Shown here: positions 14,520-30,643 of the stretch, piece after piece | Layout of the letters: each line of letters starts with the position of its first letter | How positions within the stretch are numbered: the stretch's first letter is position 1 | NCBI GenBank assembly: GCA_000703065.1 | Contig: JNLK01000001.1 | Coordinates: 3,370,001-3,434,000, forward strand | Length of the DNA: 64,000 nt | Origin: Lachnospiraceae bacterium AC2029 | GTDB taxonomy: Bacteria > Bacillota > Clostridia > Lachnospirales > Lachnospiraceae | Direction: 5' to 3' | Made by a program: the position numbers and the translations under genes | The notes under the pieces: model-generated | Seen by the model: only the letters and a program-made list of their open reading frames with translations | What the model was told of the DNA's origin: nothing | The model's database searches: none

Positions 14520-14567
14520 TTGATAAGACGAGTTAGTGTGTTATACTTATGGTTAGCATTTGCTAAC
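14520..14567 (+). promoter_or_regulatory. Promoter with GTTAG-N6-CTAAC operator, copy 1
   Basis: TTGATA (14520-14525), 16-bp spacer, TATACT (14542-14547). The operator GTTAGCATTTGCTAAC lies at 14552-14567, just after the -10 box, within an 18-bp palindrome. A half-site GTTAG at 14532 lies exactly 20 bp upstream. The 17-mer GTTAGTGTGTTATACTT here is identical to the one at 30608-30624. It drives the hydrolase/methyltransferase operon 14639-18585. Confidence 0.82.
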
Positions 14568-14638
14568 CGCGTGTATTTGTACACTGTTCAAATAATGGAA
14601 GACGTCGTGAAATCAATATCCGTATTATGGGGAGCACT

Positions 14639-15646
14639 ATGAAACACGAAGATTTTATTTTCAGAGAACACGGGTTTGTCGGACATCTGGCTGAACCGGA
14701 CGAGGGAAGTGACAGGGCTGTTATCGTGATTATGGGCGGTGAACAGAGTCTGCTTCCGGGTATAAAATTTGCTGAAAGATTTGCAGACTATGGGTTAACG
14801 GGACTGTCGGTTTCTCTGTTTGGTGCGGAAGGGATTCCTGACTCGCCAAATCAGATTCCGTTGGATATGTTTGTACCGGCTGTAAAATACCTCAAAGAAG
14901 AGAAGAAGATAGAGCATCTAAGTGTATATGGTCAGTCTATGGGCTCTATCTTTGCTGTGCTTGCAGCACAGTATATCGGAGGTTTTGATAATCTGATCAT
15001 GGTTTCTCCAACGCATGTACCATTTGAAGGGACATTGAAGGATAAGAAGACGATGACCGGCAGGAGCGTGGCGACATGGCAGGGTGAGGATATTCCCTTT
15101 GTCAAGGCGGATTTCTCGAAAGTGAAAGCAACCAAATATCAGCATCACGATGAGGCAAAATGCAAGGTCATGGGAATGTGGATTGCCTATCATGAAGCCT
15201 ATAGAAATGCTGATGCGGTAGAAAAAGCAAAACTGCATGTTGAGAATAGTGGAGCGAGAATTCTGCTTATTGCGGGAGATGAAGATGAAGCCTGGCCTTC
15301 TGAGTATTCCGTCAGAGAAATCGAGAAGAACCTGGCAGCTTCAGGTTACAACAGAGAAGTGAAAGTGATCGTATATCCGCATGGAAGCCATTTGAATGGA
15401 TTGATGCCGAATCGAGAAAGAGAGAAGAAACTATACAGAATGGTTCCGCTCATAGGACTTATGTACAGGACATTTGGAAAGTATCGTAAAGAAAATATGG
15501 AGTATTTTGAGAAGTCGGAAAAAGCGATCATAGCATGGATAACAGGAGGGAAAGAATACAGCGGAAGAGAAAAAGGTAGGGACGCTTTGAGGGAAGAACT
15601 GTACGAAACGAAAAAAAGAGGACGGTATAATGATGAAAAAATATGA
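14639..15646 (+). CDS. Alpha/beta hydrolase, BAAT/acyl-CoA thioester hydrolase C-terminal type
   Basis: The 335-residue protein has the nucleophile elbow YGQSMGSIFAVLAAQ (Ser in G-x-S-x-G), an acidic residue in IAGDEDEAWP and the His in YPHGSHLNGLMP. The layout matches the C-terminal catalytic domain of acyl-CoA thioesterases and bile-acid-CoA:amino-acid acyltransferases, but the natural acyl donor is unknown. ATG 14639 has GGGGAG upstream and matches the start of the decayed copy at 35980 (MKHEDF). It is the first gene of a GTTAG-operator operon and overlaps the next gene by 17 bp. No signal peptide is seen. Confidence 0.78.
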   Translation: MKHEDFIFREHGFVGHLAEPDEGSDRAVIVIMGGEQSLLPGIKFAERFADYGLTGLSVSLFGAEGIPDSPNQIPLDMFVPAVKYLKEEKKIEHLSVYGQSMGSIFAVLAAQYIGGFDNLIMVSPTHVPFEGTLKDKKTMTGRSVATWQGEDIPFVKADFSKVKATKYQHHDEAKCKVMGMWIAYHEAYRNADAVEKAKLHVENSGARILLIAGDEDEAWPSEYSVREIEKNLAASGYNREVKVIVYPHGSHLNGLMPNREREKKLYRMVPLIGLMYRTFGKYRKENMEYFEKSEKAIIAWITGGKEYSGREKGRDALREELYETKKRGRYNDEKI

Positions 15647-16832
15647 TACTACAAAACCGGTTGTTTTAAAGAAGGGCGTTTATCAACTGAATGATGAAAG
15701 TAACTTCAATTACCAGCTGAACCGCGTCATCAATTGGGATGGCGGACGGCTGGAGGATGTGGTGATGGTGGCCGGGAAGATTCACAACAGCGCGGATTGG
15801 AAACGCGCCATGATCACGTTGGGCAACCGGGCGATGAAGGAAGGCAGAACAGAGAATGCCATCGCCTATTACCGGATGAGCGAATTCTTCATGTATGACG
15901 GGGATCCGGATAAGAAGAAGTATTATGAGCGTGCAACAAAGCTCTTCTATCAGTATTATGCGGATTTTTTTGAAGGGGATCATCCGAGAGTCAGAAGATA
16001 TGAAGTGCCCTACCGGAATGTTAAGCTCCCGGTCATGCATGTGGTCCCGGAGGGGAAAAGCAGGGGGACGATCCTGATCCATGGCGGTAACGACAGCTAC
16101 TTTGAGGAGTTTCTCTTTACGGTCCTTTATATGCAGGAAAAGGGTTATGAAGTCTATATGTTTGAAGGCCCTGGACAGGGAGGAGTGATGCGCGTTCAGG
16201 GAATGCATTTCACACATGAATGGGAGAAGCCTGTTAAAGCGGTTCTTGACTATTTTCATCTTGATGATGTTACAATCATCGGGATTTCTCTGGGCGGTTA
16301 TCTTGCACCGAGAGCAGCGGCATTTGACAAGCGGATTCATAGGGTTGTGGCATGGTCGGTATTTCCCTGTTTTCAGGATGTGATCGTGGGTATGCAAAAG
16401 CCGGCAATTCAGAAGCTGTTCTATCTTCTGATGGGTCTTCACGCCAGACCGCTGATCAATTATGTCTTTGGGAAGAAAGCAAAAAAGGAACCGGTGATCG
16501 ACTGGGGGATCAAGCATGGCTGTTATGCGTATGAAGCAAAGGATGCTTACGGATATGCGCGGAAGCTGAAGCTTTATGATCTGGAACCTGTTGCGGACAG
16601 GATCACGCAGGATATGCTGATCGTGGGAGCAAATCAGGATCATTTTATTGACTATCGTATGGTGGGACGGGAGATCAATATGCTGAAGAATGTGAAGAGC
16701 CTGACCTTCCGCCTGTTCACGGATAAGGAGGATGCCCAGAACCACTGTAACGTCGGAAATGGAAAGCTGGTTATCGATACCATCTGCAACTGGATCGAGC
16801 AGATCAGCGCCGGTGATCCAAATGTGAGATGA
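15630..16832 (+). CDS. Alpha/beta hydrolase (FrsA/pseudooxynicotine-hydrolase-like)
   Basis: The 400-residue protein has an N-terminal helical cap of about 130 residues and a hydrolase core with an oxyanion loop at ILIHGGNDSYFEEF, nucleophile Ser in IIGISLGGYLAPRAAA (about 219), acid in GANQDHFID and His in DAQNHCNVG. The long cap and His-Cys ending resemble 2,6-dihydroxypseudooxynicotine-hydrolase-type and FrsA-like C-C or ester hydrolases. The substrate is unknown. It overlaps the previous gene, so the two are coupled. Intracellular, no signal peptide. Confidence 0.78.
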   Translation: MMKKYDTTKPVVLKKGVYQLNDESNFNYQLNRVINWDGGRLEDVVMVAGKIHNSADWKRAMITLGNRAMKEGRTENAIAYYRMSEFFMYDGDPDKKKYYERATKLFYQYYADFFEGDHPRVRRYEVPYRNVKLPVMHVVPEGKSRGTILIHGGNDSYFEEFLFTVLYMQEKGYEVYMFEGPGQGGVMRVQGMHFTHEWEKPVKAVLDYFHLDDVTIIGISLGGYLAPRAAAFDKRIHRVVAWSVFPCFQDVIVGMQKPAIQKLFYLLMGLHARPLINYVFGKKAKKEPVIDWGIKHGCYAYEAKDAYGYARKLKLYDLEPVADRITQDMLIVGANQDHFIDYRMVGREINMLKNVKSLTFRLFTDKEDAQNHCNVGNGKLVIDTICNWIEQISAGDPNVR

Positions 16833-16921
16833 AGAAGCGGGCTTCAAAACAATGGAACTGAAATTAGCCTTAAGAGCTAAAGAATTGGTAAAATGTTGTG
16901 TATGATGAGGAGGAAAATGAT

Positions 16922-17701
16922 ATGGGTTTAGAATTTGGAGATATTCAGGAAACAGCATTGATTCCGCTTGCAATAAAAGCTAGTGAAACATCGAGGCCAA
17001 ATGCAAGGATCAAAGATGAAAAAGCAAAGGAGATTATTGATTCTCTTGGGGTAGACGTGAGTAAATATGATCCGTTTATGTCACATGAAGGCGTAGTTGC
17101 GAGAACTATAATGTTCAGGAACAAATTAAACGCTTTTTTTAAGAGGTATCCTAATGCGACAGGAATAAATCTGGGATGTGGATTTGATGACAAGTTTGTG
17201 CAGGTTGATAACGGTACACTCAGATGGTTTGATGTTGATCTTCCGGATCAGATTGAAAAACGACGTAAGGTTTATGAGGATAGGGAGAGATGCATAATGC
17301 TTGAGGGGAGCGCCCTGGATGGTCAGTGGACAAGAAATATACCTGAAAGTAATATGTATATCATCGTGATGGAGGGCGTTCTTGAGTATTTTTCGAAAGA
17401 ACAGGTAAAGACATGTCTGAATATGCTATGTGACAGCTTTCCACACGGATATCTTCTGGCAGAACTTCATTCTCCGATATTAGAAAAGAACAGTAAACAT
17501 CATGATGCAATTAAGCATACGAATGCGACATTTGGATGGGGAACAAAATCGGGAGAAGAATACATTGAACTTGAACCGAGGATGTCACTTATATCAGAGA
17601 CAAGTTATAACGAGGAGATGAAGAAATATACTTTACGAGGCAAGTTGTTTGCAATAATCGGGAAAAATCTTAATAACAGACTGGCTGTTTATAAGTGGTA
17701 A
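16922..17701 (+). CDS. TcmP/LCMT-like O-methyltransferase
   Basis: The 259-residue protein begins with QETALIPLAIKASETSRPNA and has INLGCGFDDKFVQVDNG (SAM motif I) and WFDVDLPDQIEKRRK (Asp for the ribose), the layout of the leucine carboxyl methyltransferase/TcmP family that methylates carboxyl or hydroxyl groups of small molecules. AGGAGG lies before ATG 16922. It is the third gene of the operon from promoter copy 1 and overlaps the next gene by 7 bp. A carboxylate produced by the neighbouring hydrolases is a possible substrate, an inference only. Confidence 0.82.
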   Translation: MGLEFGDIQETALIPLAIKASETSRPNARIKDEKAKEIIDSLGVDVSKYDPFMSHEGVVARTIMFRNKLNAFFKRYPNATGINLGCGFDDKFVQVDNGTLRWFDVDLPDQIEKRRKVYEDRERCIMLEGSALDGQWTRNIPESNMYIIVMEGVLEYFSKEQVKTCLNMLCDSFPHGYLLAELHSPILEKNSKHHDAIKHTNATFGWGTKSGEEYIELEPRMSLISETSYNEEMKKYTLRGKLFAIIGKNLNNRLAVYKW

Positions 17702-18585
17702 ATACAGGAAAAAAGAGGATTAAGAAGGCATCATTCGAAGAAGGCGTGGATTACTGTGTTGGCTTAAAAATGATTGCGTTGTTACAGCAAATGGATGGTG
17801 AAATGACTATCCGAATTAAAGGAGTAAAGATGAGATTTCTGACGTATGGACAAAAATCCAACAGATCGCTTATGCTGATTCATGGAATGGCAAATACATC
17901 CAGCCTGTTTGACGATATTCTTCCTTTTCTGACGGATTACTTTGTTATCGTCTGTGAACTGGACGGCCATTCGGATCAGGAGCAAGGTACATTCATTTCT
18001 GTATCGGATTCAAGCGAGAAGATTGAGCAGTATGTGAATGAGCATCTTGACGGGAGCCTGTATGGCCTTCTGGGTTTTTCACTTGGAGGAACCATTGCTA
18101 CGGAGTTGATCAGTCGAGGAAGGATAAAGGTAGAGAAGACAATCCTTGATGCGGCATTTACTATCAGGATGGGGATAATGACATATCCATTTAAATTTGT
18201 TTTTCAGGGTTCGATCTGGTGCATAAAAAAAGGCGTTCCTATTCCAAAGGCGCTCGTGGAGAGTATCATGGGAAAGGGAAACAGTGGTATAGTGAATACG
18301 TTGTATAAGGGAGTTTCCTTGCAATCGGTAGGAAATGCAGCACTTTCCTGCTATAAGTACAAGATTAAGGAAGGTTTGAGAGAATACAAAAATCCGATTG
18401 TATTCTGGCATGGAGAAAATGAACCCTACCCGGTGAAGAGCGCAAAACTACTTAAGCAGTATCTGCCGCAAATGAAAAAACGTGTTTATAAGAATATGGG
18501 GCATGGGCAGATTTTACATGAATACCCGAGGGCTTATGCAAAAAGAATCAGATCATTTATGAAGGAAAATGGATCGGGATGCTAA
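17695..18585 (+). CDS. Alpha/beta hydrolase
   Basis: The 296-residue protein has an oxyanion loop LMLIHGMANTSSLFDD, nucleophile Ser in LLGFSLGGTIATE and His in NMGHGQILHEYP, a complete hydrolase set. The start is uncertain: GTG 17695 overlaps the methyltransferase stop by 7 bp without a clear ribosome site, and ATG 17770 is an alternative that removes 25 residues. It is the last gene of the operon, giving three alpha/beta hydrolases around one methyltransferase. The substrate is unknown. Confidence 0.78.
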   Translation: MVNTGKKRIKKASFEEGVDYCVGLKMIALLQQMDGEMTIRIKGVKMRFLTYGQKSNRSLMLIHGMANTSSLFDDILPFLTDYFVIVCELDGHSDQEQGTFISVSDSSEKIEQYVNEHLDGSLYGLLGFSLGGTIATELISRGRIKVEKTILDAAFTIRMGIMTYPFKFVFQGSIWCIKKGVPIPKALVESIMGKGNSGIVNTLYKGVSLQSVGNAALSCYKYKIKEGLREYKNPIVFWHGENEPYPVKSAKLLKQYLPQMKKRVYKNMGHGQILHEYPRAYAKRIRSFMKENGSGC

Positions 18586-18612
18586 GAAGAATACGGTCAG
18601 GGAAGGGGATTA

Positions 18613-18755
18613 TTGACAAATGTATTTATTGGATATATACTGCTGAAAGTTAGACATAACTAACATCCTGTGGACAGTGCCGTCCGGAGGATCATATCTT
18701 TTAATACTCCGCTTAGGCGGAGTATAAAAAAACATAGAGGTTAGCGGCAACTAAC
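18613..18755 (+). promoter_or_regulatory. Promoter with two GTTAG-N6-CTAAC operators, copies 2 and 3
   Basis: TTGACA (18613-18618), 17-bp spacer and TATACT (18636-18641) form a near-consensus promoter. One operator (18649-18664, GTTAGACATAACTAAC) follows the -10 box, and a second (18740-18755, GTTAGCGGCAACTAAC) lies just before the gene's ribosome site. Between them is a perfect 9-bp hairpin ATACTCCGC-TTAG-GCGGAGTAT (18704-18725) in the leader. It drives the ABC exporter pair. Confidence 0.83.
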
Positions 18756-18777: not shown

Positions 18778-20583
18778 GTGAAGAAGGAGAAGAAAAGATC
18801 TCCGCTATCCAGGCTTCTGGAGTATGCGGGGAACTACCGAAAACTGACGTTTCTCGGCCTGTTTCTTTCGGCCATCGCCATGATTGCAGGGATGATCCCG
18901 TATGTATGCATCTGGCTGGTGCTGAAGGAACTCATCAAGGCCGCACCGGATTTTGCATCAGCTTCTGAAATATCCGTCTATGGATGGATCGCTTTTGCTG
19001 CGGCTGTGGGAGGGATCCTTATCTATTTTGCCGCGCTGATGTGTACGCACCTTGCGGCGTTCAAGACAGCTTCCAACATCCGGAAAAGAGGTATGGAGCA
19101 TCTGATGAAGGCGCCGCTTGGTTTCTTCGACAGTCACGCATCCGGTCTGCTCAGAAACCGTCTGGATAATGCGTCTGCGGAGACGGAGACACTTCTGGCC
19201 CACAATCTGGCGGATATCGTGGGAACGGCAACCATGTTCGTATCCATGCTGGTGCTGATGTTTGTCTTTGACTGGCGCATGGGAGCGTCCTGTATGCTGG
19301 CGGCTGTGATTTCGATCGCTGCGATGTTCTCCATGATGGGCGGCAAGAACGCAAAGCTCATGATGGAATACCAGGGCGCGCAGGATGTGATGAGTAAGAC
19401 AGGAACCGAATATGTACGCGGGATCCCTGTGGTGAAGGTGTTCCAGCAGACGGTATATTCCTTCCGTGCATTTAAGGAATCCATCGAGGATTACAGCAAC
19501 AAGGCGGAGCGGTATACGGACGGCGTATGTCGACTCCCCCAGTCTATAAATCTGACGGTTACCGAAGGCGCATTTATCTTCCTTGTACCGGTCACTCTTT
19601 TTCTGGCGCCGAAGGCCCTGGAGTCAGGGGACTTTGCCGGATTTATCACGGACTTTGCTTTTTATGCGGTATTTTCAGCCATCATTTCCACGGCACTGGC
19701 CAAGATCATGTTTGCAGCCAGCGGAACCATGCTTGCGAATACAGCTCTTGCTCGGATCGAAACGGTAATGAATGCTCCGATCCTTGAGCAACCGGCGTAT
19801 CCGAAGGAACCCTCCGGAAACCGCGTGGAGTTTAAGGATGTGTCCTTTACCTATGAAGGTGCGGAGACAGCAGCTCTGGATCACGTGTCCTTTGTAGCGG
19901 AGAGCGGACAGACACTTGCATTCGTCGGCCCCTCCGGAGGAGGCAAAACCACGGCGGCCAGTCTGATCCCCCGGTTCTGGGATGTGACCTCAGGTGAGGT
20001 TTTGGTGGGAGGCGTGAATGTGAAGGACATTTCCTCCCGGGTTCTGATGGACAGGATCGCATTTGTATTCCAGAATAACAGGTTGTTCAAAACATCGATT
20101 CTGGAAAATGTGCGTGCGGCCAGACCGGACGCCACTGAAGATGAGGTAATGAAGGCCCTTGAGGCCGCACAGTGTATGGATATCATCGAGAAGCTGCCGA
20201 AGGGTGTGGATACGGTGATCGGAGCGGAAGGTACATATCTTTCCGGCGGTGAACAGCAGCGGATTGCTCTGGCCCGGGCCATCCTGAAGGATGCACCGGT
20301 GGTGGTTCTGGATGAAGCAACTGCCTTTGCGGATCCGGAAAATGAGATGCTGATCCAGAAGGCAATGAAGCACCTGACACAGGGAAAAACCGTGATCATG
20401 ATCGCCCACAGACTTTCCGCCGTAGTAGGAGCCGATAAGATCATTGTTCTTGCAGACGGACGGATCGTTGAAGAAGGATCTCATGCGGAACTGGTTAATG
20501 CCGGCGGCATGTATTCCTCCATGTGGAATGACTATAACCGGGCTGTGGAATGGAAAATCTCTTCGGAAGGAGGTGCCAGATAG
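18778..20583 (+). CDS. ABC exporter half-transporter A (membrane + ATPase)
   Basis: The 601-residue protein has six membrane segments in residues 1-310, then an ATPase domain with Walker A GPSGGGKTTAAS (about 385), signature LSGGEQQRIALARAIL (about 490), Walker B VVVLDEATAFADPE and the switch His in IMIAHRLSAV. The start is GTG with AGGAGGAG upstream. It is followed without a gap by a second half-transporter, so the two likely form a heterodimer that exports a small molecule, lipid or siderophore-like compound. It is controlled by GTTAG operators together with hydrolase and methyltransferase operons, pointing to efflux of their substrate or product. Confidence 0.92.
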   Translation: MKKEKKRSPLSRLLEYAGNYRKLTFLGLFLSAIAMIAGMIPYVCIWLVLKELIKAAPDFASASEISVYGWIAFAAAVGGILIYFAALMCTHLAAFKTASNIRKRGMEHLMKAPLGFFDSHASGLLRNRLDNASAETETLLAHNLADIVGTATMFVSMLVLMFVFDWRMGASCMLAAVISIAAMFSMMGGKNAKLMMEYQGAQDVMSKTGTEYVRGIPVVKVFQQTVYSFRAFKESIEDYSNKAERYTDGVCRLPQSINLTVTEGAFIFLVPVTLFLAPKALESGDFAGFITDFAFYAVFSAIISTALAKIMFAASGTMLANTALARIETVMNAPILEQPAYPKEPSGNRVEFKDVSFTYEGAETAALDHVSFVAESGQTLAFVGPSGGGKTTAASLIPRFWDVTSGEVLVGGVNVKDISSRVLMDRIAFVFQNNRLFKTSILENVRAARPDATEDEVMKALEAAQCMDIIEKLPKGVDTVIGAEGTYLSGGEQQRIALARAILKDAPVVVLDEATAFADPENEMLIQKAMKHLTQGKTVIMIAHRLSAVVGADKIIVLADGRIVEEGSHAELVNAGGMYSSMWNDYNRAVEWKISSEGGAR

Positions 20584-22325
20584 TGTTTGGAGAGAAGTTT
20601 AAGAGAAAATACGCGCTTTCCGATGCGGGAGTCTCCAATACGAAGAAGGGAATGATCTGGACCATCATCGTGAATCTGACGGTCATGGGAGGTATGGGCA
20701 TCCTGTATTTCCTCATGGATCATTTCATGAAGACACTGACGGGAGGAGATCCTCTGCCGAACGCATGGATATTCATCGGACTTGTGATCGGGTTTCTGAT
20801 CCTGTCCCTTATCACACATATCCAGCAGTACAGAACCACCTACGGTCTTGTGTACAGAGAGATCTTGACCATGCGGATCGGCCTGGCAGAGCGGCTTCGG
20901 AAGCTGCCCCTCAGTTTCTTCGGAAAGAGAGATCTGGCGGATCTGACGGAAACCATGATGAGCGACGTGAACCGGATGGAACATGTGTGGTCCCATGTTC
21001 TGGGATATCTCTACGGGTCCTATGTATCTACCGCCATCATCGCGGTCATGTTCTTTATCATGGACTGGAGACTGGCTATTGCATGTCTCTGGGGCGTTCC
21101 GGTGGCGTTCGGTCTTCTGTTCGGCAGCCGGAAGATGGCAAAGAAAAATGCGGCGGCAGCCAAGGCAGCAGCACTTCGTGCTTCCGACGGCATGCAGGAG
21201 ACGATAGAAAATATCCGGGAGATCCATGCCACCAATCAGGAGGATCGGTTCCTGAAGGAGCTTTTTAATAAGATCGACAACCATGAAAAGACGAATATTC
21301 ACGGGGAATTATCCACGGGTATTTTTGTAAATGCAGCCAGTGTGATCATGCGTCTCGGTGTTGCAACCACCATCCTTGCGGGGGCAAACCTGATACTTTC
21401 AGGACAGGTGGACTTTATGATCCTGTTCATGTTCCTTCTTGTGATCACCAGGATCTATGCACCCTTTGATCAGAGCCTGGCCCTCATTGCCGAGGTATTC
21501 CTGTCTGAGGTTTCCGCAAAGCGATTGATGGAGATCTATGATACCCCCGCGGCCTCCGGTAAAGCGGAGTATCAGCCAAAAGGTCATGACATCACATTTG
21601 AAAACGTCTCTTTTGCTTACGATGACGAGCAGGTTCTTCACGGAGTCAGCTTTACTGCAAAGGAGGGCGAGGTTACTGCGCTGGTGGGACCCTCCGGTTC
21701 AGGAAAGAGTACTTGTGCCCGTCTGGCAGCCAGGTTATGGGATGCTTCCTCCGGAACGATAAGCGTCGGCGGCGTGGATGTCAGTACGGTAGAGCCGGAA
21801 ACCCTGCTTTCCGATTACGCGGTGGTCTTTCAGGATGTAGTTCTTTTTGATGATACCGTTATGGAGAATATCCGGCTGGGAAAGCACGGAGCGACCGATG
21901 AAGAGGTCCTGGCTGCGGCAAAGGCGGCCAACTGTGATGAATTCGTCGGGAAGCTGCCGGAGGGTTATGCAACACCTATCGGAGAAAACGGAGCGAAGCT
22001 GTCCGGCGGTGAGAGGCAGCGGATATCCATCGCTCGGGCTCTTCTTAAGGATGCGCCCATCGTACTTCTGGATGAAGCAACCGCTTCTCTGGATGTGGAA
22101 AATGAAACGAAGGTCCAGGGCGCCTTGTCAAGACTGCTGAAAGATAAAACTGTGCTTGTGATAGCGCACCGTATGCGTACCGTGGAAGCGGCAGATAAGA
22201 TCGTGGTGCTGAAGGACGGAAAGGTGGCAGAAGAGGGCACTCCTGCAGAACTGAAAAACAGGCAGGGAAGCATATTCAGCCGCATGCTTACACTGCAGAC
22301 GGAAGGCGCAGGGTGGAGTATATAA
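20583..22325 (+). CDS. ABC exporter half-transporter B (membrane + ATPase)
   Basis: A GTG start overlaps the previous stop by one base, with AAGGAGG 9 bp before it; an earlier in-frame ATG lies before that site. The 580-residue protein has six membrane segments, then Walker A GPSGSGKSTCAR, signature LSGGERQRISIARALL, Walker B IVLLDEATASLDVE and VIAHRMRTVEAADK. It is the partner of half-transporter A; coupled translation supports equal amounts. Substrate unknown. Confidence 0.92.
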   Translation: MFGEKFKRKYALSDAGVSNTKKGMIWTIIVNLTVMGGMGILYFLMDHFMKTLTGGDPLPNAWIFIGLVIGFLILSLITHIQQYRTTYGLVYREILTMRIGLAERLRKLPLSFFGKRDLADLTETMMSDVNRMEHVWSHVLGYLYGSYVSTAIIAVMFFIMDWRLAIACLWGVPVAFGLLFGSRKMAKKNAAAAKAAALRASDGMQETIENIREIHATNQEDRFLKELFNKIDNHEKTNIHGELSTGIFVNAASVIMRLGVATTILAGANLILSGQVDFMILFMFLLVITRIYAPFDQSLALIAEVFLSEVSAKRLMEIYDTPAASGKAEYQPKGHDITFENVSFAYDDEQVLHGVSFTAKEGEVTALVGPSGSGKSTCARLAARLWDASSGTISVGGVDVSTVEPETLLSDYAVVFQDVVLFDDTVMENIRLGKHGATDEEVLAAAKAANCDEFVGKLPEGYATPIGENGAKLSGGERQRISIARALLKDAPIVLLDEATASLDVENETKVQGALSRLLKDKTVLVIAHRMRTVEAADKIVVLKDGKVAEEGTPAELKNRQGSIFSRMLTLQTEGAGWSI

Positions 22326-22803: not shown

Positions 22804-23423
22804 GAAATTCAAAATGGAAGAAGGAAAACAAGTCGATTCGCAGTAACAGTAAGGTGTACAAAAAGGCACTGGTTGCCGCGGAAATAAAGGATGGATCTGT
22901 GCAGGATTACAGAAAAAGACTGGCAAAGATGTATTTGTCCCCCAGATACAAAGAGCATAATATCTATCCGTCGACGGACACAACTCACGTATACGCAGTG
23001 ATAGCAATGTGTCTGGAGTTAAAGAAATTCGGACTGTCCGACTCGGAAATTATTGATGCTATCAATCGAGGCTTTGTGAAGCGAAGGGCATTCTTTAAGG
23101 CTCTGATATATCTCGTGGATCTTTTTCCGAACAGTTTTGAAATTGCGAAGAAGTGGAATATACAGGATCATGAAAAACGTGTCTGTGACGGGAGTATTAC
23201 CTACGATTATTTTAATGTCAGTGATAATAAGGTAGAGTACAGCGTCTCAAAATGTATGTATGTTGAAATGTTTCAAAGCTACGGGATACGAGGCCTGTGT
23301 AAGATATTCTGTATGACTGATGAGACTGCTTACGCCGGACTGACAAGACATGTACAGTTTATACGTCATTCGGATCTTTCGGACGGGGAATCGTGTACGG
23401 ATGAAGTAATGCGAAAAAAATGA
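22800..23423 (+). CDS. ATC-hydrolase-family protein (L-2-amino-thiazoline-4-carboxylate hydrolase-like), copy 1
   Basis: The 207-residue protein ends with the family pattern: a Cys (CMYVEMFQSYG), then LCKIFCMTDETAYAGL and a later Cys in GESCTDEV, resembling the C-x-xx-G-xx-EL-xx-FC-xx-D pattern of Pfam ATC_hydrolase. The N-terminal half is helical. The assignment is by eye and the reaction is unproven. It is coupled to the DUF3793 gene by ATGA and is the last gene of the operon from promoter copies 2/3. Two further family members lie at 31301 and 32618. Confidence 0.6.
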   Translation: MRNSKWKKENKSIRSNSKVYKKALVAAEIKDGSVQDYRKRLAKMYLSPRYKEHNIYPSTDTTHVYAVIAMCLELKKFGLSDSEIIDAINRGFVKRRAFFKALIYLVDLFPNSFEIAKKWNIQDHEKRVCDGSITYDYFNVSDNKVEYSVSKCMYVEMFQSYGIRGLCKIFCMTDETAYAGLTRHVQFIRHSDLSDGESCTDEVMRKK

Positions 23424-23848: not shown

Positions 23849-23901
23849 TTGACATGTTAGCCGGCTCTAACTATAATGCGGTTAGGTTAGTAGATGCTAA
23901 C
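23849..23901 (+). promoter_or_regulatory. Consensus promoter with two GTTAG-N6-CTAAC operators, copies 4 and 5
   Basis: TTGACA (23849-23854), exactly 17 bp, TATAAT (23872-23877): a perfect sigma-A promoter. Operator GTTAGCCGGCTCTAAC (23856-23871) fills the spacer, and a second, GTTAGTAGATGCTAAC (23886-23901), starts 30 bp further, on the same helix face. A repressor here would directly exclude RNA polymerase. It drives the P-type ATPase unit. Confidence 0.87.
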
Positions 23902-23943: not shown

Positions 23944-24261
23944 ATGAGTTGGTCAAAGGTTGGTCTTTTTGCGCTTGGAACGTTGTTTGGTTCGGCAGGA
24001 ATTAAATTGCTTTCCTCGAGAGATGCAAAAAAGGTATATACACACTGTACAGCAGGGGTGCTTCGCGCAAAGGATGCAGTGATGGATCAGGTTACCACAT
24101 TGCAGGAGAACTGCTCGGACATTTATGCGGATGCGAAAGCCATCAATGAGGAACGTAGAGCAAAGGATGAGGAAGCGGTGATCGAGGATGAGATCATAGA
24201 GAATAACGATGAAGAAACCTCTGATGAGGCCGTTGCAGAGGAGAATGCTGTTACAGAGTGA
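23944..24261 (+). CDS. DUF6110-like membrane-associated small protein
   Basis: The 105-residue protein begins with a short hydrophobic segment (VGLFALGTLFGSAGIKLL), then SSRDAKKVYTHCTAGVLRAK and a very acidic tail. This layout recurs directly upstream of metal P-type ATPases in Clostridia (DUF6110, from memory). The Cys/His in VYTHCTAG and the acidic tail might bind metal, which is an inference. AAAGGAGG precedes the ATG. It is the first gene of the unit and lies 47 bp before the ATPase. Confidence 0.7.
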   Translation: MSWSKVGLFALGTLFGSAGIKLLSSRDAKKVYTHCTAGVLRAKDAVMDQVTTLQENCSDIYADAKAINEERRAKDEEAVIEDEIIENNDEETSDEAVAEENAVTE

Positions 24262-24308: not shown

Positions 24309-26414
24309 ATGAAATACCGTATATTACATGAATCAAGAGGACGGATCCGGGTACATCTGCCGATGCAGAGAATGACCTTCCGGCAGGCGGATACGCTAGA
24401 TTATTATCTGGAAGGATTTCCGGAGATACAGGAACGAAAGGTATATGAACGGACGGCGGATGCGGTCCTTCGCTATTCCTGCAGCCGGGATCGGGTGATC
24501 GAGATCCTGAGAGGATTTTCATTTGAAAAAGTACAGGTGCCGGAAAGCGTCTATGAATCTTCCGGTCGAGAAGTGGCTGCAAAATATCGTGAGAAGATCG
24601 TCATGACAACGATCCTGCACTACGGAAAGAGGCTGATCGTTCCGCTTCCGATCCGTAAGCTCTGGGTCATGGCGAAGGCACTACGCTTTGTATGGCGCGG
24701 CTTGAAAACCATACCTAGCGGACATCTGAAGGTGGAACTTCTGGATGCAGCGGCTATCACTGCGGCGATCCTGACAAAGGATCATAAGACGGCTTCCGGT
24801 GTCATGTATCTGCTGAAGATCGGAGACACACTGGAAGAGTGGACTCATAAAAGGTCAGTGGATGATCTGGCACGGCGGATGTCCCTGAACATTGATAAGG
24901 TATGGCTGATCACGGAGCAGGGAGAGGTCCTGACGGAGGCTACGAAGGTCGCTTTAAATGACCGGGTTGTGGTACGAATGGGGAACCTTATTCCTTTTGA
25001 CGGAGAGGTAGACAGCGGAGAAGGTATGGTCAATCAGGCTTCCATGACGGGAGAAGCGATCCCGGTCAGCAAGGGGCCCGGTTCGGCTGTCTTTGCCGGA
25101 ACGGTTGTGGAGGAGGGCGAACTGATCGTCCGGGTTACGAAGACCAGTGGATGTGGACGGTTTGATAAGATCGTGAAAATGATCGAAGAGTCTGAGAAGC
25201 TGAAATCTGCACTGGAAAGTAAGGCGGAAAGAATGGCGGATCGACTGGTTCCCTATACTCTTTTAGCCTCCGCACTCACCGGTCTCATCAGCAGAAATAT
25301 CACCAAGGCAGTTTCTGTCCTGATGGTGGATTATTCCTGTGCGCTCAAAATGTCCATGCCCATTTCGGTTCTGTCTGCGATCCGGGAGGCGGCAGACTAT
25401 GACATCACGGTGAAGGGCGGGCGTTTCCTGGAGGCAGTGGCAGAAGCAGATACCATCGTATTCGATAAGACGGGAACGCTCACAAAGGCCAGTCCGAAAC
25501 TGGTGAAGGTTGTCTCCTTTAACGGCGAATCCGAGGATGAACTGCTGAGACAGGCAGCCTGCCTGGAGGAACATTTCCCACATTCCGTGGCACGGGCGGT
25601 AGTGATTGCTGCAGAAGAAAAAGGCCTTACGCACGAGGAAATGCATACAAAGGCAGAGTATATCGTTGCCCACGGCATCGCTTCGGAGATCGACGGCGAG
25701 AAGGCGGTGATCGGAAGCTTCCATTTTGTTTTTGAGGATGAAGGAGTGATCATTCCGGAAGGAAAGGAGAAGGAGTTCTGGGATCTTCCGGTAATGTATT
25801 CCCATCTGTACTATGCAAAAGGCGGAAAACTGGCGGCTTGTCTTCTGATCGAGGATCCTATGCGGGAAGAAGCCGGAGAAGTTGTCAGAAGTTTAAGAGA
25901 TCTGGGCTTCAAACATATCGTGATGATGACGGGAGACAGTGAGCGGACGGCAGCGGCTATAGCTAAGGCAGCGGGAATTGAAGAGTATTATTCAGAGGTG
26001 CTGCCGGAGGATAAGGCAGGCTTTGTAGAGCGGGCGAAGGCGGAAGGAAAGCACGTCATCATGGTAGGCGATGGGATCAATGACTCCCCGGCACTTTCTG
26101 CGGCGGATGCAGGCATCGCCATCAGTGAAGGGGCGGAGATCGCACGCCAGATTGCGGATATCACAGTGAATTCCTCACATCTGGAAAGCATCGTGACACT
26201 TCGAAAGATCAGCACACAGCTCATGAAGCGGATTCGGTTCAATTACCGGACCATCGTGGGCTTCAACACGGCACTGATCATGCTTGGTATCGCAGGGATT
26301 CTCCCCCCGGCTACATCGGCGCTTCTGCATAACGGTTCCACCATTGCGCTGGGACTGAAGAGCATGACGCCGCTTCTCAGCGACAGGAAGGAGAAAACAG
26401 ATGAAAAAGCATAA
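24309..26414 (+). CDS. P1B-type heavy-metal-translocating ATPase without CPx motif
   Basis: The 701-residue protein has an N-terminal domain without CxxC, an actuator loop (NQASMTGEAIPVSKG), phosphorylation site DKTGTLTKASPK, HP locus in EEHFPHSVARAVV and hinge GDGINDSPALSAADAG. In the membrane helix where CPC/SPC is usual it reads DYSCALKMSMP, so the metal is not predicted by the classical rules; related CtpC-like pumps without CPC handle Mn or Zn. It sits between a DUF6110-like gene and a 26-residue peptide, a conserved trio. It is controlled by two GTTAG operators. Confidence 0.9.
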   Translation: MKYRILHESRGRIRVHLPMQRMTFRQADTLDYYLEGFPEIQERKVYERTADAVLRYSCSRDRVIEILRGFSFEKVQVPESVYESSGREVAAKYREKIVMTTILHYGKRLIVPLPIRKLWVMAKALRFVWRGLKTIPSGHLKVELLDAAAITAAILTKDHKTASGVMYLLKIGDTLEEWTHKRSVDDLARRMSLNIDKVWLITEQGEVLTEATKVALNDRVVVRMGNLIPFDGEVDSGEGMVNQASMTGEAIPVSKGPGSAVFAGTVVEEGELIVRVTKTSGCGRFDKIVKMIEESEKLKSALESKAERMADRLVPYTLLASALTGLISRNITKAVSVLMVDYSCALKMSMPISVLSAIREAADYDITVKGGRFLEAVAEADTIVFDKTGTLTKASPKLVKVVSFNGESEDELLRQAACLEEHFPHSVARAVVIAAEEKGLTHEEMHTKAEYIVAHGIASEIDGEKAVIGSFHFVFEDEGVIIPEGKEKEFWDLPVMYSHLYYAKGGKLAACLLIEDPMREEAGEVVRSLRDLGFKHIVMMTGDSERTAAAIAKAAGIEEYYSEVLPEDKAGFVERAKAEGKHVIMVGDGINDSPALSAADAGIAISEGAEIARQIADITVNSSHLESIVTLRKISTQLMKRIRFNYRTIVGFNTALIMLGIAGILPPATSALLHNGSTIALGLKSMTPLLSDRKEKTDEKA

Positions 26415-26481: not shown

Positions 26482-26501
26482 GATTTTAATTTATTCAGAA
26501 A

Positions 26502-26549: not shown

Positions 26550-26573
26550 GATTAATTACGAATAGCTCGCGGT

Positions 26574-28877
26574 TTATTCCCGATTCTTCAATACTTCTGA
26601 CGGAACGATCTTCTTGATCTTATGTGTTAGGATGGTACTGATGATCAGGTATACAGCCAGGATTCCCAGGAATACACCTACATACAGATACCATTCAAAA
26701 TGCAGATTCATGCCCATGGCTGTATTTGCGATAAAGAAGGGATAGATAGAGTCGGCAGCCAGCTTTACCAGGGGGATGATGATGCATGCCCCCAGCATGA
26801 CAGCGTAGAAGTTTCCGTCCAGATAGACCTTTCGGATCTCATTCATCCGGTATCCGAAGATTTTGACAAGAGAGATACCGAAGGATGCCCGGTCGATCAT
26901 AACATTCAGCATAAGATACATGACAGCGATAAATATGAGCACGGATACTGTGATGAGGATGATGACCAGTGACATCATCTGATCCACAAAGATCCCGGCT
27001 GCATTTTCCACATCGCTTCGCTGCGTAATGGAATACACATGGGAGCTCTCAATGGAAAGGGATTTATCGGAGAGGAGCATATTGTAATAATCCTTACTTT
27101 CGCCAAACAGCTCCCGCATGGAGTCGATATCCATATAGGCAGTCAGTCCGATGGAGTAAGGTACAATTTCAGATACATTGAAAGCGTACCGGATATCCTC
27201 AGCGGTATCGTCCATGATGAAGGTATCCCCGACGGAGAGATCATACTTCTGGGCGGTGGAGGATGCGATCACAAGATCCTTCTTATTACCGCTGGTGCGG
27301 AACGGATAGTAGGGATTGTCCTGATCGATACCGATCACATTTACATCCAGCGAATAATCCAGATAGTTCACGGACAGGTTCTTTACCAGACAGGGCTCGG
27401 CTCCTTCGGGTACCTGCTCGGTGGGATATTTTAACAGGTACATATATTCGTAATTGATGTCCGCCAGATTCTCCGTCTTCACATTGTTGCAGAGAACAGA
27501 GCAGTTGAGACCGATCATGAAGATCAGTAGGGCAACGGTCATTCCGATCACTACCGTAAATACACCTCTTTTTTCGCGGGACATCTGACGTCCGGTGAAT
27601 TGAAGTAAAAATGCGCGCCCTTTCTTGTTGTTTCGTGAATTACTCCGTGCGGTTCCGTGATTCCGCTTCAGAAGGTGCTCCTGCTCATTTTTAATGAGAG
27701 AGAGTGCTGTCCGGGAAAGCTTCTTTCGGATCACAAGGGCATTTACGAGGATGGAAATGAGCGGCGGCATCACAATACAGTAGAGGATGATGTAAAGCGG
27801 GTAAACCTGTTTCATCTTCGGAATGCTGTAATAGAGATAGCTGTCCTGCATCTGAAAATCAACGCCGATGGGAGAGAAGCCCAGGAGCATTCCAATCAGA
27901 CCGGCGATGAAGGTGATCACTGTCGGAAGCAGGATGTAATGAAGCGTGAGAGTGGACCTTTTCACACCCATGGAATAAAGGGTTCCGATGACGCTGCTTT
28001 CCTCGTTGATCTGGTGGATGATGAATACGGAGATCACGTAGGCGAAGAGCATGACCAGGATCGCACCGGCCACAAGGCTCACCAGCCGCTTCAGGATCAC
28101 GTCGCTGGCAGCATCGCTGGCGATCCGCGGATTGTCCTTGTTTTCGCTGAAGCTCTCCAGGTTGGACATTTTCATAACGGAATCTGTACCGGGAACCTTC
28201 GAGTCTATGGTGAGCTCCTTTAGTGCATCCTTCAGTGTGCGGTGTGTCGCACCGTCCTTTAGGCGGTATGCGTAGGTAAAGGTTTCTCCGCCGGTCTTTC
28301 CCGAGATGATGAGTTTGTCATATGTATCCTTGCTGACAATGGCAATGCCGAAATTCTCCGGATCTGCGGTCATATCGGAGAAGCTCTTTACCGGAAGATT
28401 GTAATCCGGAATGCAGCCGATCCCGGATACTGTGAATTCTTCGCCGGCAAGTGAAATGCGGTCTCCAACGCTGAGCTTATTTCGATCCGCATAGAGATTC
28501 ATGATCACGATATCATGGTCTGCGGTGGGAGCGGATCCTTCATCTGTCTTCAGAAGATCGATATTCTCACGTGGTTTAAATACCCGCAGTGTCCCTTTCT
28601 CTGCATTGATTTCTACGCTGAAGATCGATTCAATCTCACATTTTCCATCTTCCAGTTCCAGGATCTGAGCATCGGTAAGCGGAGTGAATACGGTGAACTG
28701 TCCGTCCTGCAGACGGCACTCTTCGTTATAGGCATCGCTTCCCTGGATGGTGGTTTCCGCCATGCCGGCGATACTCACCACCAGATACATCCCCATGACG
28801 ATCATGAAGAAAAGCGCTAGGTATCTTCCCAGATGAGCCTTTAGTTCTCTTGGGATTCTTGCATTTAATTCTTTCAT
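26574..28877 (-). CDS. FtsX/MacB-like ABC transporter permease
   Basis: The 767-residue protein starts with a cytoplasmic segment and a first membrane helix (YLALFFMIVMGMYLVVSI), a large extracytoplasmic domain, three helices near the middle (AGAILVMLFAYVISVFI onward), a second extracytoplasmic domain and a last helix set (LVIILITVSVLIFIAVMY). This doubled FtsX plan is that of large Gram-positive permeases for peptide or lipid export. ATG 28877 starts 2 bp after the ATPase stop. It forms a unit with the ATPase at 28879 and is controlled by operator copy 6. Confidence 0.88.
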   Translation of the reverse strand: MKELNARIPRELKAHLGRYLALFFMIVMGMYLVVSIAGMAETTIQGSDAYNEECRLQDGQFTVFTPLTDAQILELEDGKCEIESIFSVEINAEKGTLRVFKPRENIDLLKTDEGSAPTADHDIVIMNLYADRNKLSVGDRISLAGEEFTVSGIGCIPDYNLPVKSFSDMTADPENFGIAIVSKDTYDKLIISGKTGGETFTYAYRLKDGATHRTLKDALKELTIDSKVPGTDSVMKMSNLESFSENKDNPRIASDAASDVILKRLVSLVAGAILVMLFAYVISVFIIHQINEESSVIGTLYSMGVKRSTLTLHYILLPTVITFIAGLIGMLLGFSPIGVDFQMQDSYLYYSIPKMKQVYPLYIILYCIVMPPLISILVNALVIRKKLSRTALSLIKNEQEHLLKRNHGTARSNSRNNKKGRAFLLQFTGRQMSREKRGVFTVVIGMTVALLIFMIGLNCSVLCNNVKTENLADINYEYMYLLKYPTEQVPEGAEPCLVKNLSVNYLDYSLDVNVIGIDQDNPYYPFRTSGNKKDLVIASSTAQKYDLSVGDTFIMDDTAEDIRYAFNVSEIVPYSIGLTAYMDIDSMRELFGESKDYYNMLLSDKSLSIESSHVYSITQRSDVENAAGIFVDQMMSLVIILITVSVLIFIAVMYLMLNVMIDRASFGISLVKIFGYRMNEIRKVYLDGNFYAVMLGACIIIPLVKLAADSIYPFFIANTAMGMNLHFEWYLYVGVFLGILAVYLIISTILTHKIKKIVPSEVLKNRE

Positions 28878-28878
28878 C

Positions 28879-29580
28879 TTACAGATCCTCCAGTTCGGCT
28901 GCGGGGATGCGGGTTTCATTCTGATAGCATTTCCGGATCTCCCCATCCTTCATGATCACTACCTGCTGAACCATATTCTTGATTGCGTTGTTGTGGGTTA
29001 CGATCAACATGGTAGTGCCATAGGTCTGATTTACTTTTTCAAGCAGAACCAGGATATCCCGGGATGTCTTGGAGTCCAGGGCACCGGTGGGTTCATCGCA
29101 GAGCAGCAGTTTCGGATTCTTTACCAGGGCCCGGGCGATGGCGCAGCGCTGCTGCTGACCGCCGGAGAGCTGGGACGGAAATTTGTTCTGATGCTCCATA
29201 AGACCAAGAATCTCCAGCAACTCATCCAAATCCATGGGGTTATCGGTGAGGTACTCACACACTTTGATATTCTCCCGAACGGTCAGATTCGGAACCAGGT
29301 TGTAGAACTGGAAGATGAAGCCCAGGCTTTGCCGCCGGTATTCCGACAGTGCGCTACCCTTTAATCCTACGATCTCCTGCCCCTCGATCCGGATGGATCC
29401 GGAATCTACCGTGTCCAGTCCGCCGATGCAGTTAAGCAATGTGGACTTTCCGGAACCGCTGGTTCCCTGGATCACGCACATGATCCCTTTTTCAACGGAC
29501 AGGTCGATGCCCTTCAGAACCTGGATATAGCTTCCGCCTTCGCCATAGCTTTTTTTGATGCCTTTTACTTCAAGATACAT
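28879..29580 (-). CDS. ABC transporter ATP-binding protein (MacB/LolD type)
   Basis: The 233-residue protein has Walker [18 protein letters not shown]-loop [18 protein letters not shown], signature [15 protein letters not shown], Walker [17 protein letters not shown] and switch HNNAI. These are typical of the MacB/LolD/SalX class, which power FtsX-like permeases. ATG 29580 has GGAAGG upstream; a longer frame crosses the promoter. Divergent from the TetR gene at 29903 with a 322-bp operator-rich spacer, so it is under at least two controls. Confidence 0.92.
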
Positions 29581-29680
29581 AGTATGCCTTCCTTTCAGAT
29601 TTGTATCATGACTGCAGTATGGATCATTTTGGTTACGATCATGGAAACGATCCATAAGCTGAATGGTTGTATTATCTTAA

Positions 29681-29732
29681 CATGAGCAACTGCTCATGTT
29701 TGCATATTAGCACCGACTAACCGCATTGTCAA
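29681..29732 (-). promoter_or_regulatory. Promoter with GTTAG operator (copy 6) and TGAGCA dyad
   Basis: On the minus strand TTGACA (29732-29727), a 17-bp spacer and TAATAT (29709-29704) form the promoter. GTTAG-N6-CTAAT, one mismatch to the GTTAG-N6-CTAAC operator, fills the spacer (29706-29721), as at the ATPase promoter. At the expected transcript start lies an 18-bp palindrome CATGAGCA-AC-TGCTCATG (29681-29698), probably bound by the neighbouring TetR. Two different repressors may thus act on this ABC exporter. Confidence 0.78.
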
Positions 29733-29740
29733 TAGAAATG

Positions 29741-29790
29741 TGAGCAATTACTCATATTTGTGTTGATTTACTTTTTTATTGTGTTATACT
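29741..29790 (+). promoter_or_regulatory. TetR promoter with second TGAGCA dyad
   Basis: TTGATT (29763-29768), 16-bp spacer, TATACT (29785-29790) point toward the TetR gene at 29903. A second dyad TGAGCAATTACTCA (29741-29754), one mismatch, lies upstream of the -35 box. Together with 29681-29698 it suggests that the TetR protein binds both sides of the divergent region. Confidence 0.65.
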
Positions 29791-29902
29791 GAATATGAAT
29801 TGTGAATTATAACCATGATCGAAGAACGAAACAATTCTGCATAGATCAGATTATGAGATAAATCAATCTGCGATGATTATCCGGAGCAGGAGGAGAATAC
29901 AC

Positions 29903-30514
29903 ATGACAGAAAAGGATATACGAATACCGAAACAGAAGAGAAGCATGGAGAAGAAGCAGAAGATCAAGGATGCTGCCATCCGGCTTATGTCCGAGCGGGG
30001 CTATCATAAGACCAGTTCCAATGAAATCGCGAAGGAAGCGGGAGTCTCCATCGGTACATTTTATTCCTACTTTAAGGACAAGAAGGAACTCTATAAAGAA
30101 CTGGTGGCGGATATCTACAATGTGGTGCTGTCTCCGATCGATCTGGAAGAGCTGCCGGCGGATGTGCCTGTCCGGGATACTGTGTATCTCTATATATCCA
30201 CTGTTTTCCGGGGACATGAGTATGAGACGGCATTCCAACGGGAAATCGCATCCTTGTCCGAACAGTCGGATGAGTTCCGGGAGATTGAGATGCAGTACAA
30301 GGCAAATCTCACACTGCTTTTCTCAAACATTCTGGGACAGTACAGGGAAGAGCTTAGAACAGAAGATTTGAAGACAGCATCTTATCTGATCTTAACGGCG
30401 GTGGAAGCAGTGGTGCATGATACCACATTCCATAACGGAGGGAAGAATAAGAAAGCTGTGATCGAAGAGCTTACGGATATGATCGTGAGGTATCTGTTCC
30501 GGGAAAATTTTTGA
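29903..30514 (+). CDS. TetR/AcrR family regulator
   Basis: The 203-residue protein has a clear helix-turn-helix: IKDAAIRLMSERGYHKTSSN, EIAKEAGVSIGTFYSYFKDK. The C-terminal ligand domain is that of multidrug-type AcrR proteins. AGGAGGAG precedes ATG 29903, preferred over ATG 29873. It is divergent from the MacB-like exporter, with TGAGCA dyads between them, so it most likely represses the exporter and itself. A strong terminator follows. Confidence 0.9.
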   Translation: MTEKDIRIPKQKRSMEKKQKIKDAAIRLMSERGYHKTSSNEIAKEAGVSIGTFYSYFKDKKELYKELVADIYNVVLSPIDLEELPADVPVRDTVYLYISTVFRGHEYETAFQREIASLSEQSDEFREIEMQYKANLTLLFSNILGQYREELRTEDLKTASYLILTAVEAVVHDTTFHNGGKNKKAVIEELTDMIVRYLFRENF

Positions 30515-30554
30515 GAGAAAATGTCAGTGAATAGGAAAAAAAGATGCAGAAAAG

Positions 30555-30592
30555 TGTCATGCCACAGAAACAGGGGGCATGGCATTTTTTTT
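30555..30592 (+). terminator. Rho-independent terminator after TetR
   Basis: TGTCATGCC (30555-30563) pairs with GGCATGGCA (30576-30584), one G-T pair, followed by eight T. Confidence 0.88.
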
Positions 30593-30593
30593 G

Positions 30594-30643
30594 TTGGATT
30601 ATATTCGGTTAGTGTGTTATACTTTGCGTTAGCGAATGCTAAC
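30594..30643 (+). promoter_or_regulatory. Promoter with GTTAG-N6-CTAAC operator, copy 7
   Basis: TTGGAT (30594-30599), 18-bp spacer, TATACT (30618-30623). The operator GTTAGCGAATGCTAAC (30628-30643) follows the -10 box, and a half-site GTTAG (30608) lies exactly 20 bp upstream, the same design as at 14532/14552. It likely drives the long operon 30690-38764, since no other strong promoter with an operator is visible in it. Confidence 0.82.

Follow-up and report, generated by a model that had tools for sequence, protein, structure and literature searches.

The 16-bp inverted repeat GTTAG-N6-CTAAC, which recurs at promoters of a gene island in Lachnospiraceae bacterium AC2029, is very likely, on the sequence evidence assembled here, the operator recognized by the one DtxR/MntR-family (PF02742) repressor of the genome, and the genes behind it would form a metal starvation regulon, the metal being most likely Fe(II). 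The island lies in a stretch of 64,000 nucleotides (contig JNLK01000001.1, positions 3,370,001 to 3,434,000; hereafter the window), in whose own numbering its features are given; coordinates marked C1 refer to the whole contig, and L numbers denote individual loci. The direct results are the positions of the sites, their overlap with promoters, their conservation, their linkage to dtxR, and the domain and ligand make-up of the regulator; from these we infer binding, the direction of control, the identity of the metal and the roles of the island genes.

Distribution of the motif in the window and the genome

A pattern scan of the window identified GTTAGNNNNNNCTAAC exactly at 14552, 18649, 18740, 23856, 23886 and 30628 and GTTAG-N6-CTAAC with one mismatch at 29706, the seven dyads that an earlier note on this DNA had listed, and no further place with zero or one mismatch anywhere in the window. 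The remark in that note that the motif was noticed nowhere else in the window is correct, but it does not extend to the genome, which holds seven more exact copies. In 100 dinucleotide shuffles of the window, exact matches averaged 0.02 and the largest count was 1. At up to two mismatches there were 10 places in the window against a shuffle mean of 14.86, so that site 29706 is not significant by count alone, and the two-mismatch places 10435, 41212 and 54870 were dropped as chance level; site 29706 is kept in its two nearest copies (L282 and L284), with a spacer base changed in one of them. Promoter-like matches in 14400-30800 numbered 31, not much above the 24.8 (standard deviation 4.9) of shuffles, and the four best of them (12, 11, 10 and 10 of 12) were those at 23856, 18649, 14552 and, on the minus strand, 29706. 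A promoter had been claimed for every site, which these four bear out, but 18740 lies in the leader of the 18649 unit, the only plus-strand match just before it being a chance-grade 9-of-12 at 18671-18700, and 30628 is preceded by a TATACT box but by no match in the promoter scan. Likewise, the site was said to fill the 17-bp spacer between -35 and -10 at two promoters; this is so at 23856 (TTGACA-T-site-TATAAT), but at 29706 the site overlaps the minus-strand -10 box TAATAT. Judged by position and conservation, the GTTAG sites look like operators.

The genome (3.86 Mb, one contig) contains 13 exact sites, compared with one for the reversed pattern. Beyond these there are 9 one-mismatch places, which, distributed over 30 one-mismatch patterns, correspond to about 0.3 exact sites expected (P about 2e-17 for at least 13). 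Counting exact and one-mismatch places together, the reversed pattern was found at 65 and the motif at 22, and near-sites were consequently given no weight unless conserved; the reversed pattern is not a matched control for near-sites, TTAG and CTAA holding stop-codon letters, which are probably rare in coding DNA. The earlier note had proposed a genome scan in which scatter of the motif inside genes would speak against a regulon, and had described that regulon as island-wide. The exact sites proved instead to be intergenic, at or behind promoters, and to extend to promoters far from the island, above all that of feoAAB, and to the neighborhood of dtxR. Site C1:64302 lies 124 bp before the gene of a 128-aa DtxR-family protein, with a promoter divergent from dtxR; sites C1:2049281, 2049310 and 2049344 precede feoA-feoA-feoB, with the ZIP gene of the genome ~1.1 kb behind feoB; site C1:2144262, with a one-mismatch partner 30 bp before it, precedes the gene of an 83-aa HMA protein; and sites C1:2841328 and 2841358 precede a second DUF6110/P-type ATPase pair. 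The opinion that no described regulon has this gene set thus overlooked that its core is a metal (feo) regulon. Of the one-mismatch places, C1:2144232 and 3399706 (29706 of the window) are promoter sites, and C1:2381463 (pckA) and 1468974 (fba) were retained after a test across the genus. The others were not taken as operators: 824492 and 2804019 are inside ORFs, 3265614 overlaps a gene end, 848999 falls where a gene identified by eye as gpmI begins, and 2049060 is at the coding start of a feo neighbor.

For pckA, 30 of the 55 places found in the genus were sampled (L252-L281, own site included), and in 29 of these 30 loci the 400 bp upstream of pckA held a site with zero or one mismatch (2 exact, 27 one-mismatch); the remainder of 16 of those loci, 41,760 bp in all, held no such place. 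For class-II fba (L312-L341) an upstream site with at most one mismatch was present in 22 of 25 anchored loci, 4 of them exact, and in 2 of 5 other loci, compared with none in 56,429 bp downstream. The deviating base of these near-sites differs between species. The simple reading is that they are weaker operators of the same repressor; the alternative is that a second regulator with a similar site acts at pckA and fba.

The motif was present in 37 of 41 genomes (our own, 24 of the genus and 16 of the order). Forty operator regions from 16 relatives, among the sites listed (those of G026 and three of G027 being left out), were then compared, and in 21 of them a homologue of a protein near a site of our genome was encoded within 300 bp downstream: by manual tally FeoA in 7, FeoB in 1, ZIP in 4, DtxR in a further 2, HMA in 2, the ABC pair in 2, and DUF6110, the hydrolase and a LolD-like protein in 1 each. 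The remaining 19 include genes for flavodoxin (L141, behind two sites) and DUF3793 (L131), pckA (L129, L138), fba (L132, by eye), a DUF2325 gene (L156, by eye) and the hairpin of a candidate small RNA (L144); exact operators in L128 and L147 are followed, at 42 and 58 bp, by SEC-C M24 peptidase (methionine aminopeptidase-like) genes, that of L147 being identified by eye. Pfam confirmed the flavodoxin, DUF3793 in the window, L131 and L211, the phosphoenolpyruvate carboxykinase of L129, the M24 peptidase of L128 and our own class-II aldolase (L171). A promoter with the site as its spacer was found in 22 of 392 genomes of the order, our own included, and the reversed control gave none; among the 27 loci concerned, 3 of them from our genome, FeoA was first downstream in 11 (1 of them own) and none of the tested proteins in 7. 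Where exact sites were paired within 60 bp, the spacing was 29-31 bp, or about three helical turns, in 19 of 34 distinct pairs.

A DtxR/MntR-family regulator linked to the motif

The candidate repressor is a 128-aa protein (C1:63791-64177, minus strand) that passes the Pfam cut-offs for both family domains, the N-terminal PF01325 (E 3.8e-10) and the metal-binding and dimerization domain PF02742 (E 8.5e-17); the genome gave no other PF02742 match. Its orthologues were drawn from a regulator scan of named genomes, of which the best 80 of 205 relatives were kept; by title the hosts are mostly Lachnospiraceae, Eubacterium, Roseburia and Pseudobutyrivibrio. The exact palindrome was found within 400 bp upstream of 35 of the 80 dtxR orthologues, and TTAG-N6-CTAA of 41, compared with 6 exact sites in all the rest of the same loci (374,211 bp; binomial p 5e-33, relatedness being ignored). 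That spacer bases and distances vary favors selection acting on the half-sites. Among the 36 sequences with a site (the 35 loci and our own), 23 have it in a promoter with a TTGA-type -35 and a TATACT-type -10, directed away from dtxR, and the first recognized divergent gene in the 35 loci encodes FeoA in 7, a Cys-rich small protein (of the FeoB-associated type, by eye) in 9 and DUF2325 in 2, none being recognized in 17.

The closest known operator is the IdeR/DtxR box of Actinobacteria. Its 19-bp form TTAGGTTAGSCTAACCTAA is described as bound by two dimers, at repeats 1+3 and 2+4, and a proposed 14-bp half site, TTAGGNNNNCCTAA, as bound by a single dimer (PMC8464063). The half site is TTAG-N6-CTAA, the core and spacing seen here, and differs by the conserved outer G/C. 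Each of the 13 sites holds one TTAG-N6-CTAA unit, at promoters, which is the single-dimer DtxR-type arrangement and not the 19-bp box. Placement on the -10 or start site and iron-uptake targets are further points of likeness (PMC8464063, PMC10317159), but there is no interleaved second site here, the conserved G stands outside (GTTAG) and not inside (TTAGG) the core, and the protein has 128 aa and only two Pfam domains. An inner G after GTTAG occurs in 1 of 26 own half-sites; taken over 197 distinct sites from the examined loci, the figure is 8%. Literature searches for this motif or for a known DtxR or feo regulon in Lachnospiraceae, which did not cover RegPrecise, gave among the papers listed none with typed forms of GTTAG-N6-CTAAC or TTAG-N6-CTAA, and one with TTAGGNNNNCCTAA.

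IdeR represses from sites that overlap the promoter or start region (PMC10317159), and the same overlap here suggests repression by the metal-loaded protein and release on starvation. We propose that one repressor dimer binds each palindrome, as TTAG-N6-CTAA has the spacing of one IdeR dimer, and that binding would often be as two dimers ~30 bp, or three helical turns, apart. When metal is plentiful, the loaded repressor would occupy the -35/-10 spacer, the -10 box or the DNA immediately following that box, and transcription would be blocked. When metal is scarce, feoAAB, the HMA protein and the two DUF6110/P-type ATPase pairs would be switched on together, and with them, in the window, an ABC pair resembling YbtPQ/IrtAB with its DUF3793 gene and probably the hydrolase/methyltransferase and ABC-FtsX units.

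Several observations weigh against such a regulon. The motif was absent in 4 of the 41 genomes, and among the 40 operator regions the site was inside an ORF in 4 (L155, L158, L159, L161) and without a clear neighbor link in 6 (L130, L134, L148, L154, L162, L166). The exact spacer-filling promoter was missing in 370 of the 392 genomes of the order. Of the 80 dtxR orthologues, 45 have no exact site within 400 bp, and 35 not even a one-mismatch site. In our genome the site promoter faces away from dtxR, which is preceded by a separate TTGCCA-17-TATAAT promoter (by eye), an arrangement that does not by itself indicate autoregulation.

The sole Fur-family (PF01475) match in the genome precedes a PF01297 (ZnuA) gene and, given this neighbor, may be a Zur; PF01297 also covers manganese binders. 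The Fur regulons of Clostridioides difficile and C. acetobutylicum share with the regulon proposed here the iron control of feo and flavodoxin (PMC6311696), but the regulator family and the operator are different ones here, and the only Fur-family gene is the one adjoining the PF01297 gene.

Units of the island

The earlier note held that the motif unites hydrolase/methyltransferase operons, ABC transporters and a metal ATPase. Several island units very probably do share one regulator, as judged from their sites, but the units behind 14552 and 30628 have little or no comparative support outside near-identical copies. The members that appear best supported are the ABC and P-type ATPase units, followed by the ABC-FtsX unit and the hydrolase gene at 17695, with 14552 and 30628 last.

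The ABC unit has operator GTTAGACATAACTAAC (18649..18664, plus strand, as are the features below unless stated) 7 bp behind the -10 of TTGACA-17-TATACT (18613-18641) and GTTAGCGGCAACTAAC (18740..18755) in the leader of the pair. Behind them are a type-IV (exporter-fold) ABC half-transporter (18778..20583), its partner (20583..22325), a DUF3793 protein by Pfam (22420..22803) and an ATC_hydrolase-domain protein (22800..23423). L176 and L177 retain both sites, the former with spacer changes at one of them and the latter at both. A survey of homologues in the genus, limited to the best locus per genome among the matches listed, covered 29 loci other than our own: exact sites were present within 1.5 kb upstream of the first ABC gene in 12, the core TTAG-N6-CTAA in 5 more and neither in 12; L200 and L201 have an exact site elsewhere in the locus, and less than 200 bp of upstream sequence was available in L178, L187 and L201. 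A partial homologue of the first gene in another genus (L224, 72% identical) has three sites upstream, and DUF3793 genes follow exact operators also in L131 and L211. The note had counted two ABC exporters in the island, but this pair is nearest to siderophore importers in a PDB search: the best bacterial half-transporter matches, by sequence rank, are 6p6i_A (a YbtPQ entry) and then IrtA for the first protein and 6p6i_B / 8vsi_B (YbtQ) for the second. YbtPQ and IrtAB use an exporter fold for import (PMC10967856, PMC10246721). Set against this likeness, eukaryotic ABCB proteins outscore YbtPQ/IrtAB in the PDB search, Pfam reported no extra siderophore-interaction domain in the pair, and the top NCBIfam model is MsbA, below its cut-off.

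The metal ATPase unit has GTTAGCCGGCTCTAAC (23856..23871) filling the 17-bp spacer of TTGACA/TATAAT (23849-23877) and a second operator, GTTAGTAGATGCTAAC (23886..23901), 30 bp after it, followed by a DUF6110 protein (23944..24261) and a heavy-metal P-type ATPase (24309..26414). The second copy of the ATPase (C1:2841777-2843882) is 92% identical and stands behind a like operator pair, and the unit occurs with sites also in L152 and L225. In L225, which is from another genus, a DtxR-type protein, 40% identical, is encoded directly behind the operator, before the DUF6110/P-type ATPase genes.

The ABC-FtsX unit, on the minus strand, comprises an ABC ATPase named LolD-like from its pairing with FtsX (28879..29655) and an FtsX-like permease (26574..28946). 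Its one-mismatch operator GTTAGTCGGTGCTAAT (29706..29721, minus strand) overlaps the -10 of TTGACA-17-TAATAT (29732-29704). LolD-like genes lie behind sites in other genera (L163, L213, L226), but of 29 non-own homologue loci within the genus, L282 and L284 retain the site and 27 lack it, which weakens the case for this member. The Pfam-confirmed TetR-family regulator at 29873..30514 has dyads of its own flanking the site, TGAGCAACTGCTCA at 29683 (29683-29696) and TGAGCAATTACTCA at 29741 (29741-29754), read by eye; dyads of this TGAGCAAYTRCTCA type recur, looser, in L284. They are probably the operators of this TetR itself, in which case the ABC-FtsX promoter would be doubly controlled.

At the left of the island, GTTAGCATTTGCTAAC (14552..14567) lies 4 bp behind TTGATA-16-TATACT (14520-14547), before the operon of a BAAT-like alpha/beta hydrolase (14627..15646; BAAT_C, acyl-CoA thioester hydrolase-like); a second alpha/beta hydrolase (15630..16832), an LCM-family SAM methyltransferase (16898..17701) and a third alpha/beta hydrolase (17695..18585) follow. 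The last has a 73% identical homologue in the same genus (L146) with an exact operator 66 bp upstream. At the right, GTTAGCGAATGCTAAC (30628..30643) precedes a 168-aa protein without a Pfam or NCBIfam match (30690..31196) and an ATC_hydrolase and SAM methyltransferase fusion (31274..32560). The island encodes three ATC_hydrolase-domain proteins (22800-23423, 31274-32560 and 32618-33229), one of them fused to a methyltransferase.

It is possible, if on balance unlikely, that the sites are genuine and that feo, the ABC pair, the P-type ATPase and perhaps ABC-FtsX are the only functional members, with 14552 and 30628 being lineage-specific or inert. Such a restriction would explain why no site was found in the 8 other loci of the BAAT unit with upstream sequence (L233 being without it) and why, in 9 other loci of the 30628 unit, the site is exact in L249 and reduced to the core in L243, both near-identical copies, and absent in 7; these counts argue against the wider membership. 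It is less easily reconciled with 14552 and 30628 being exact palindromes placed right behind a TATACT box, with GTTAGTGTGTTATACTT shared upstream. This string, common to 14532-14548 and 30608-30624, starts 20 bp before the operator in each case and suggests a common origin of the two promoters.

The metal, the candidate small RNA and the wider regulon

In the DtxR/MntR-family reading, the metal is probably iron, because flavodoxin, DUF3793 and the YbtPQ/IrtAB-like pair are among the targets; flavodoxin is raised in iron starvation (PMC6311696). The ligand positions of the regulator are less one-sided. Across the 80 orthologues C103, E106 and H107 are invariant (80/80), E15 and H81 are present in 79, and position 12 is N in 72, D in 5 and M in 3. 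In comparison with the primary site of IdeR/DtxR (Met10, Cys102, Glu105, His106) the last three positions are matched and the Met10 position is mostly Asn; the set N12, E15, H81, C103, E106 and H107 is the MntR arrangement, numbered by alignment to the closest MntR structures, with Glu99 replaced by Cys. Met10 and Cys102 are reported to raise Fe(II) selectivity, and MntRs to have Asp/Asn and Glu there (PMC10317159), by which one selectivity position is Fe-type (Cys103) and the other, position 12, is MntR-type.

It is therefore necessary to weigh the alternative that the same repressor responds to manganese, or to Mn and Fe, and that FeoB may carry Mn, which we consider rather unlikely. Its basis is partly structural: on our reading of the alignment, two of the three DtxR ancillary ligands (Glu83 and His98) are not conserved in the 80 orthologues, and the closest PDB structures are the MntRs of B. 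subtilis and E. coli, which the regulator resembles in size and in having two domains, keeping Asn/Asp at the Asp8 position and the residues at the Glu11, His77, Glu102 and His103 positions. The regulator differs from these MntRs in having Cys at the Glu99 position (80/80) and feoAAB among its targets, and in NCBIfam it falls far below the MntR equivalogs (67.6, 91.1 and 41.8 bits against cut-offs of 138, 153 and 350), as it does below the DtxR equivalog (40.7 bits against 290); that the MntR models outscore the DtxR one is again in keeping with manganese. The conserved near-sites at pckA point the same way, since phosphoenolpyruvate carboxykinase is Mn-dependent, and ZIP, pckA and P-type ATPase targets are not indicative of iron alone. 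There is also a precedent in PgMntR of Porphyromonas gingivalis, which has mixed Asp/Cys/Glu/His ligands, with Cys108 in the place of Glu99, binds Mn as well as Fe and regulates a manganese-transporting FeoB (PMC4805248), although it has twin C-terminal FeoA domains and the regulator here has none. These likenesses, and the Asn at position 12, as listed for MntR (PMC10317159), speak for manganese as a candidate. Manganese as the signal is at odds with Cys103, the residue tied to Fe selectivity, being present in 80 of 80, and with flavodoxin, DUF3793 and the siderophore-importer-like pair among the targets.

Ownership of the motif by a regulator of another family is very improbable in the two forms considered. 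The earlier note had looked to the TetR proteins of the island, and the TetR gene at 29873-30514 does adjoin site 29706, but an island TetR as the owner was rejected, this being the only one of the three examined in that role, in view of the sites at feoAAB, the linkage of the motif to dtxR in 35 of 80 loci and the separate TGAGCAAYTRCTCA dyads. A MarR-family repressor of the MepR kind was a lead that agrees with the pseudo-palindromes and GTTAG motif described for S. aureus MepR (PMC3617543), but, no search of the genome for MarR proteins having been made, it is unsupported by gene content, the genes served being largely metal transporters, and the motif travels with dtxR and has the DtxR-type spacing.

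Beside dtxR the DtxR/MntR-type operator may serve a further kind of target. In our genome, L021, L022 (the same place as L150), L122 and L144 an operator promoter is followed by a hairpin and no recognized gene. The hairpin, which we regard as a candidate metal-regulated structured small RNA, would belong in our genome to a transcript of ~100 nt at about C1:64321-64421, plus strand, within a region at about C1:64318-64421 (L014 6017-6120), both ends being predicted, and its loop holds the invariant CCGGTACTCCCT. Over ten stem pairs in five sequences, which are few and related, 96% of the 50 cells are paired (0/500 shuffles as high), 4 pairs are changed on both sides (3/500) and the covariation score is 0.38 (0/500), whereas further pair types are no higher than in shuffles (388/500). 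Slid versions of the stem reached no more than 42% pairing, with 0 or 1 pair altered on both sides, and RNAalifold returned the same stem with 12 pairs. Terminator-like hairpins follow in our genome, L021, L022 and L144 (by eye); the terminator would be this second hairpin, as an A-run comes right after the main one. An Rfam search of 20 loci, of which L018, L021 and L022 contain the hairpin, gave no family for it at gathering scores. A search of 161 sources (without L099-L115, L168-L204 and L232-L341) with model R1 gave, beyond the five training sequences and L150, weak matches only (L041, L130 and L154, 13.9-17 bits); R1 also matches three training hairpins on their opposite strand (16.9-21.6 bits), the stem being palindromic.

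According to a review, low-GC Gram-positives use Fur for iron, and their DtxR regulators are limited to manganese (PMC10317159). We tentatively suggest, as an idea less secure than the operator assignment itself, that Lachnospiraceae instead control iron through a DtxR/MntR-type Fe(II) repressor with a single-dimer operator and not through Fur. In this genus the repressor would then command a full iron-sparing circuit made up of feoAAB, an island for siderophore import, weak near-consensus operators at pckA and fba, by which central carbon flow would be tied to metal supply, and a RyhB/FsrA-like small RNA, the conserved hairpin RNA of ~100 nt with an anti-Shine-Dalgarno-like CCGGUACUCCCU loop. 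If this is true, the sites would offer natural instances of the 'half site', the occurrence and function of which the IdeR authors regard as open (PMC10317159), the motif and its target list would be testable in many genomes, and the metal response of a common gut and rumen family would be re-annotated, with feo placed under a DtxR-type protein that acts at single-dimer operators.

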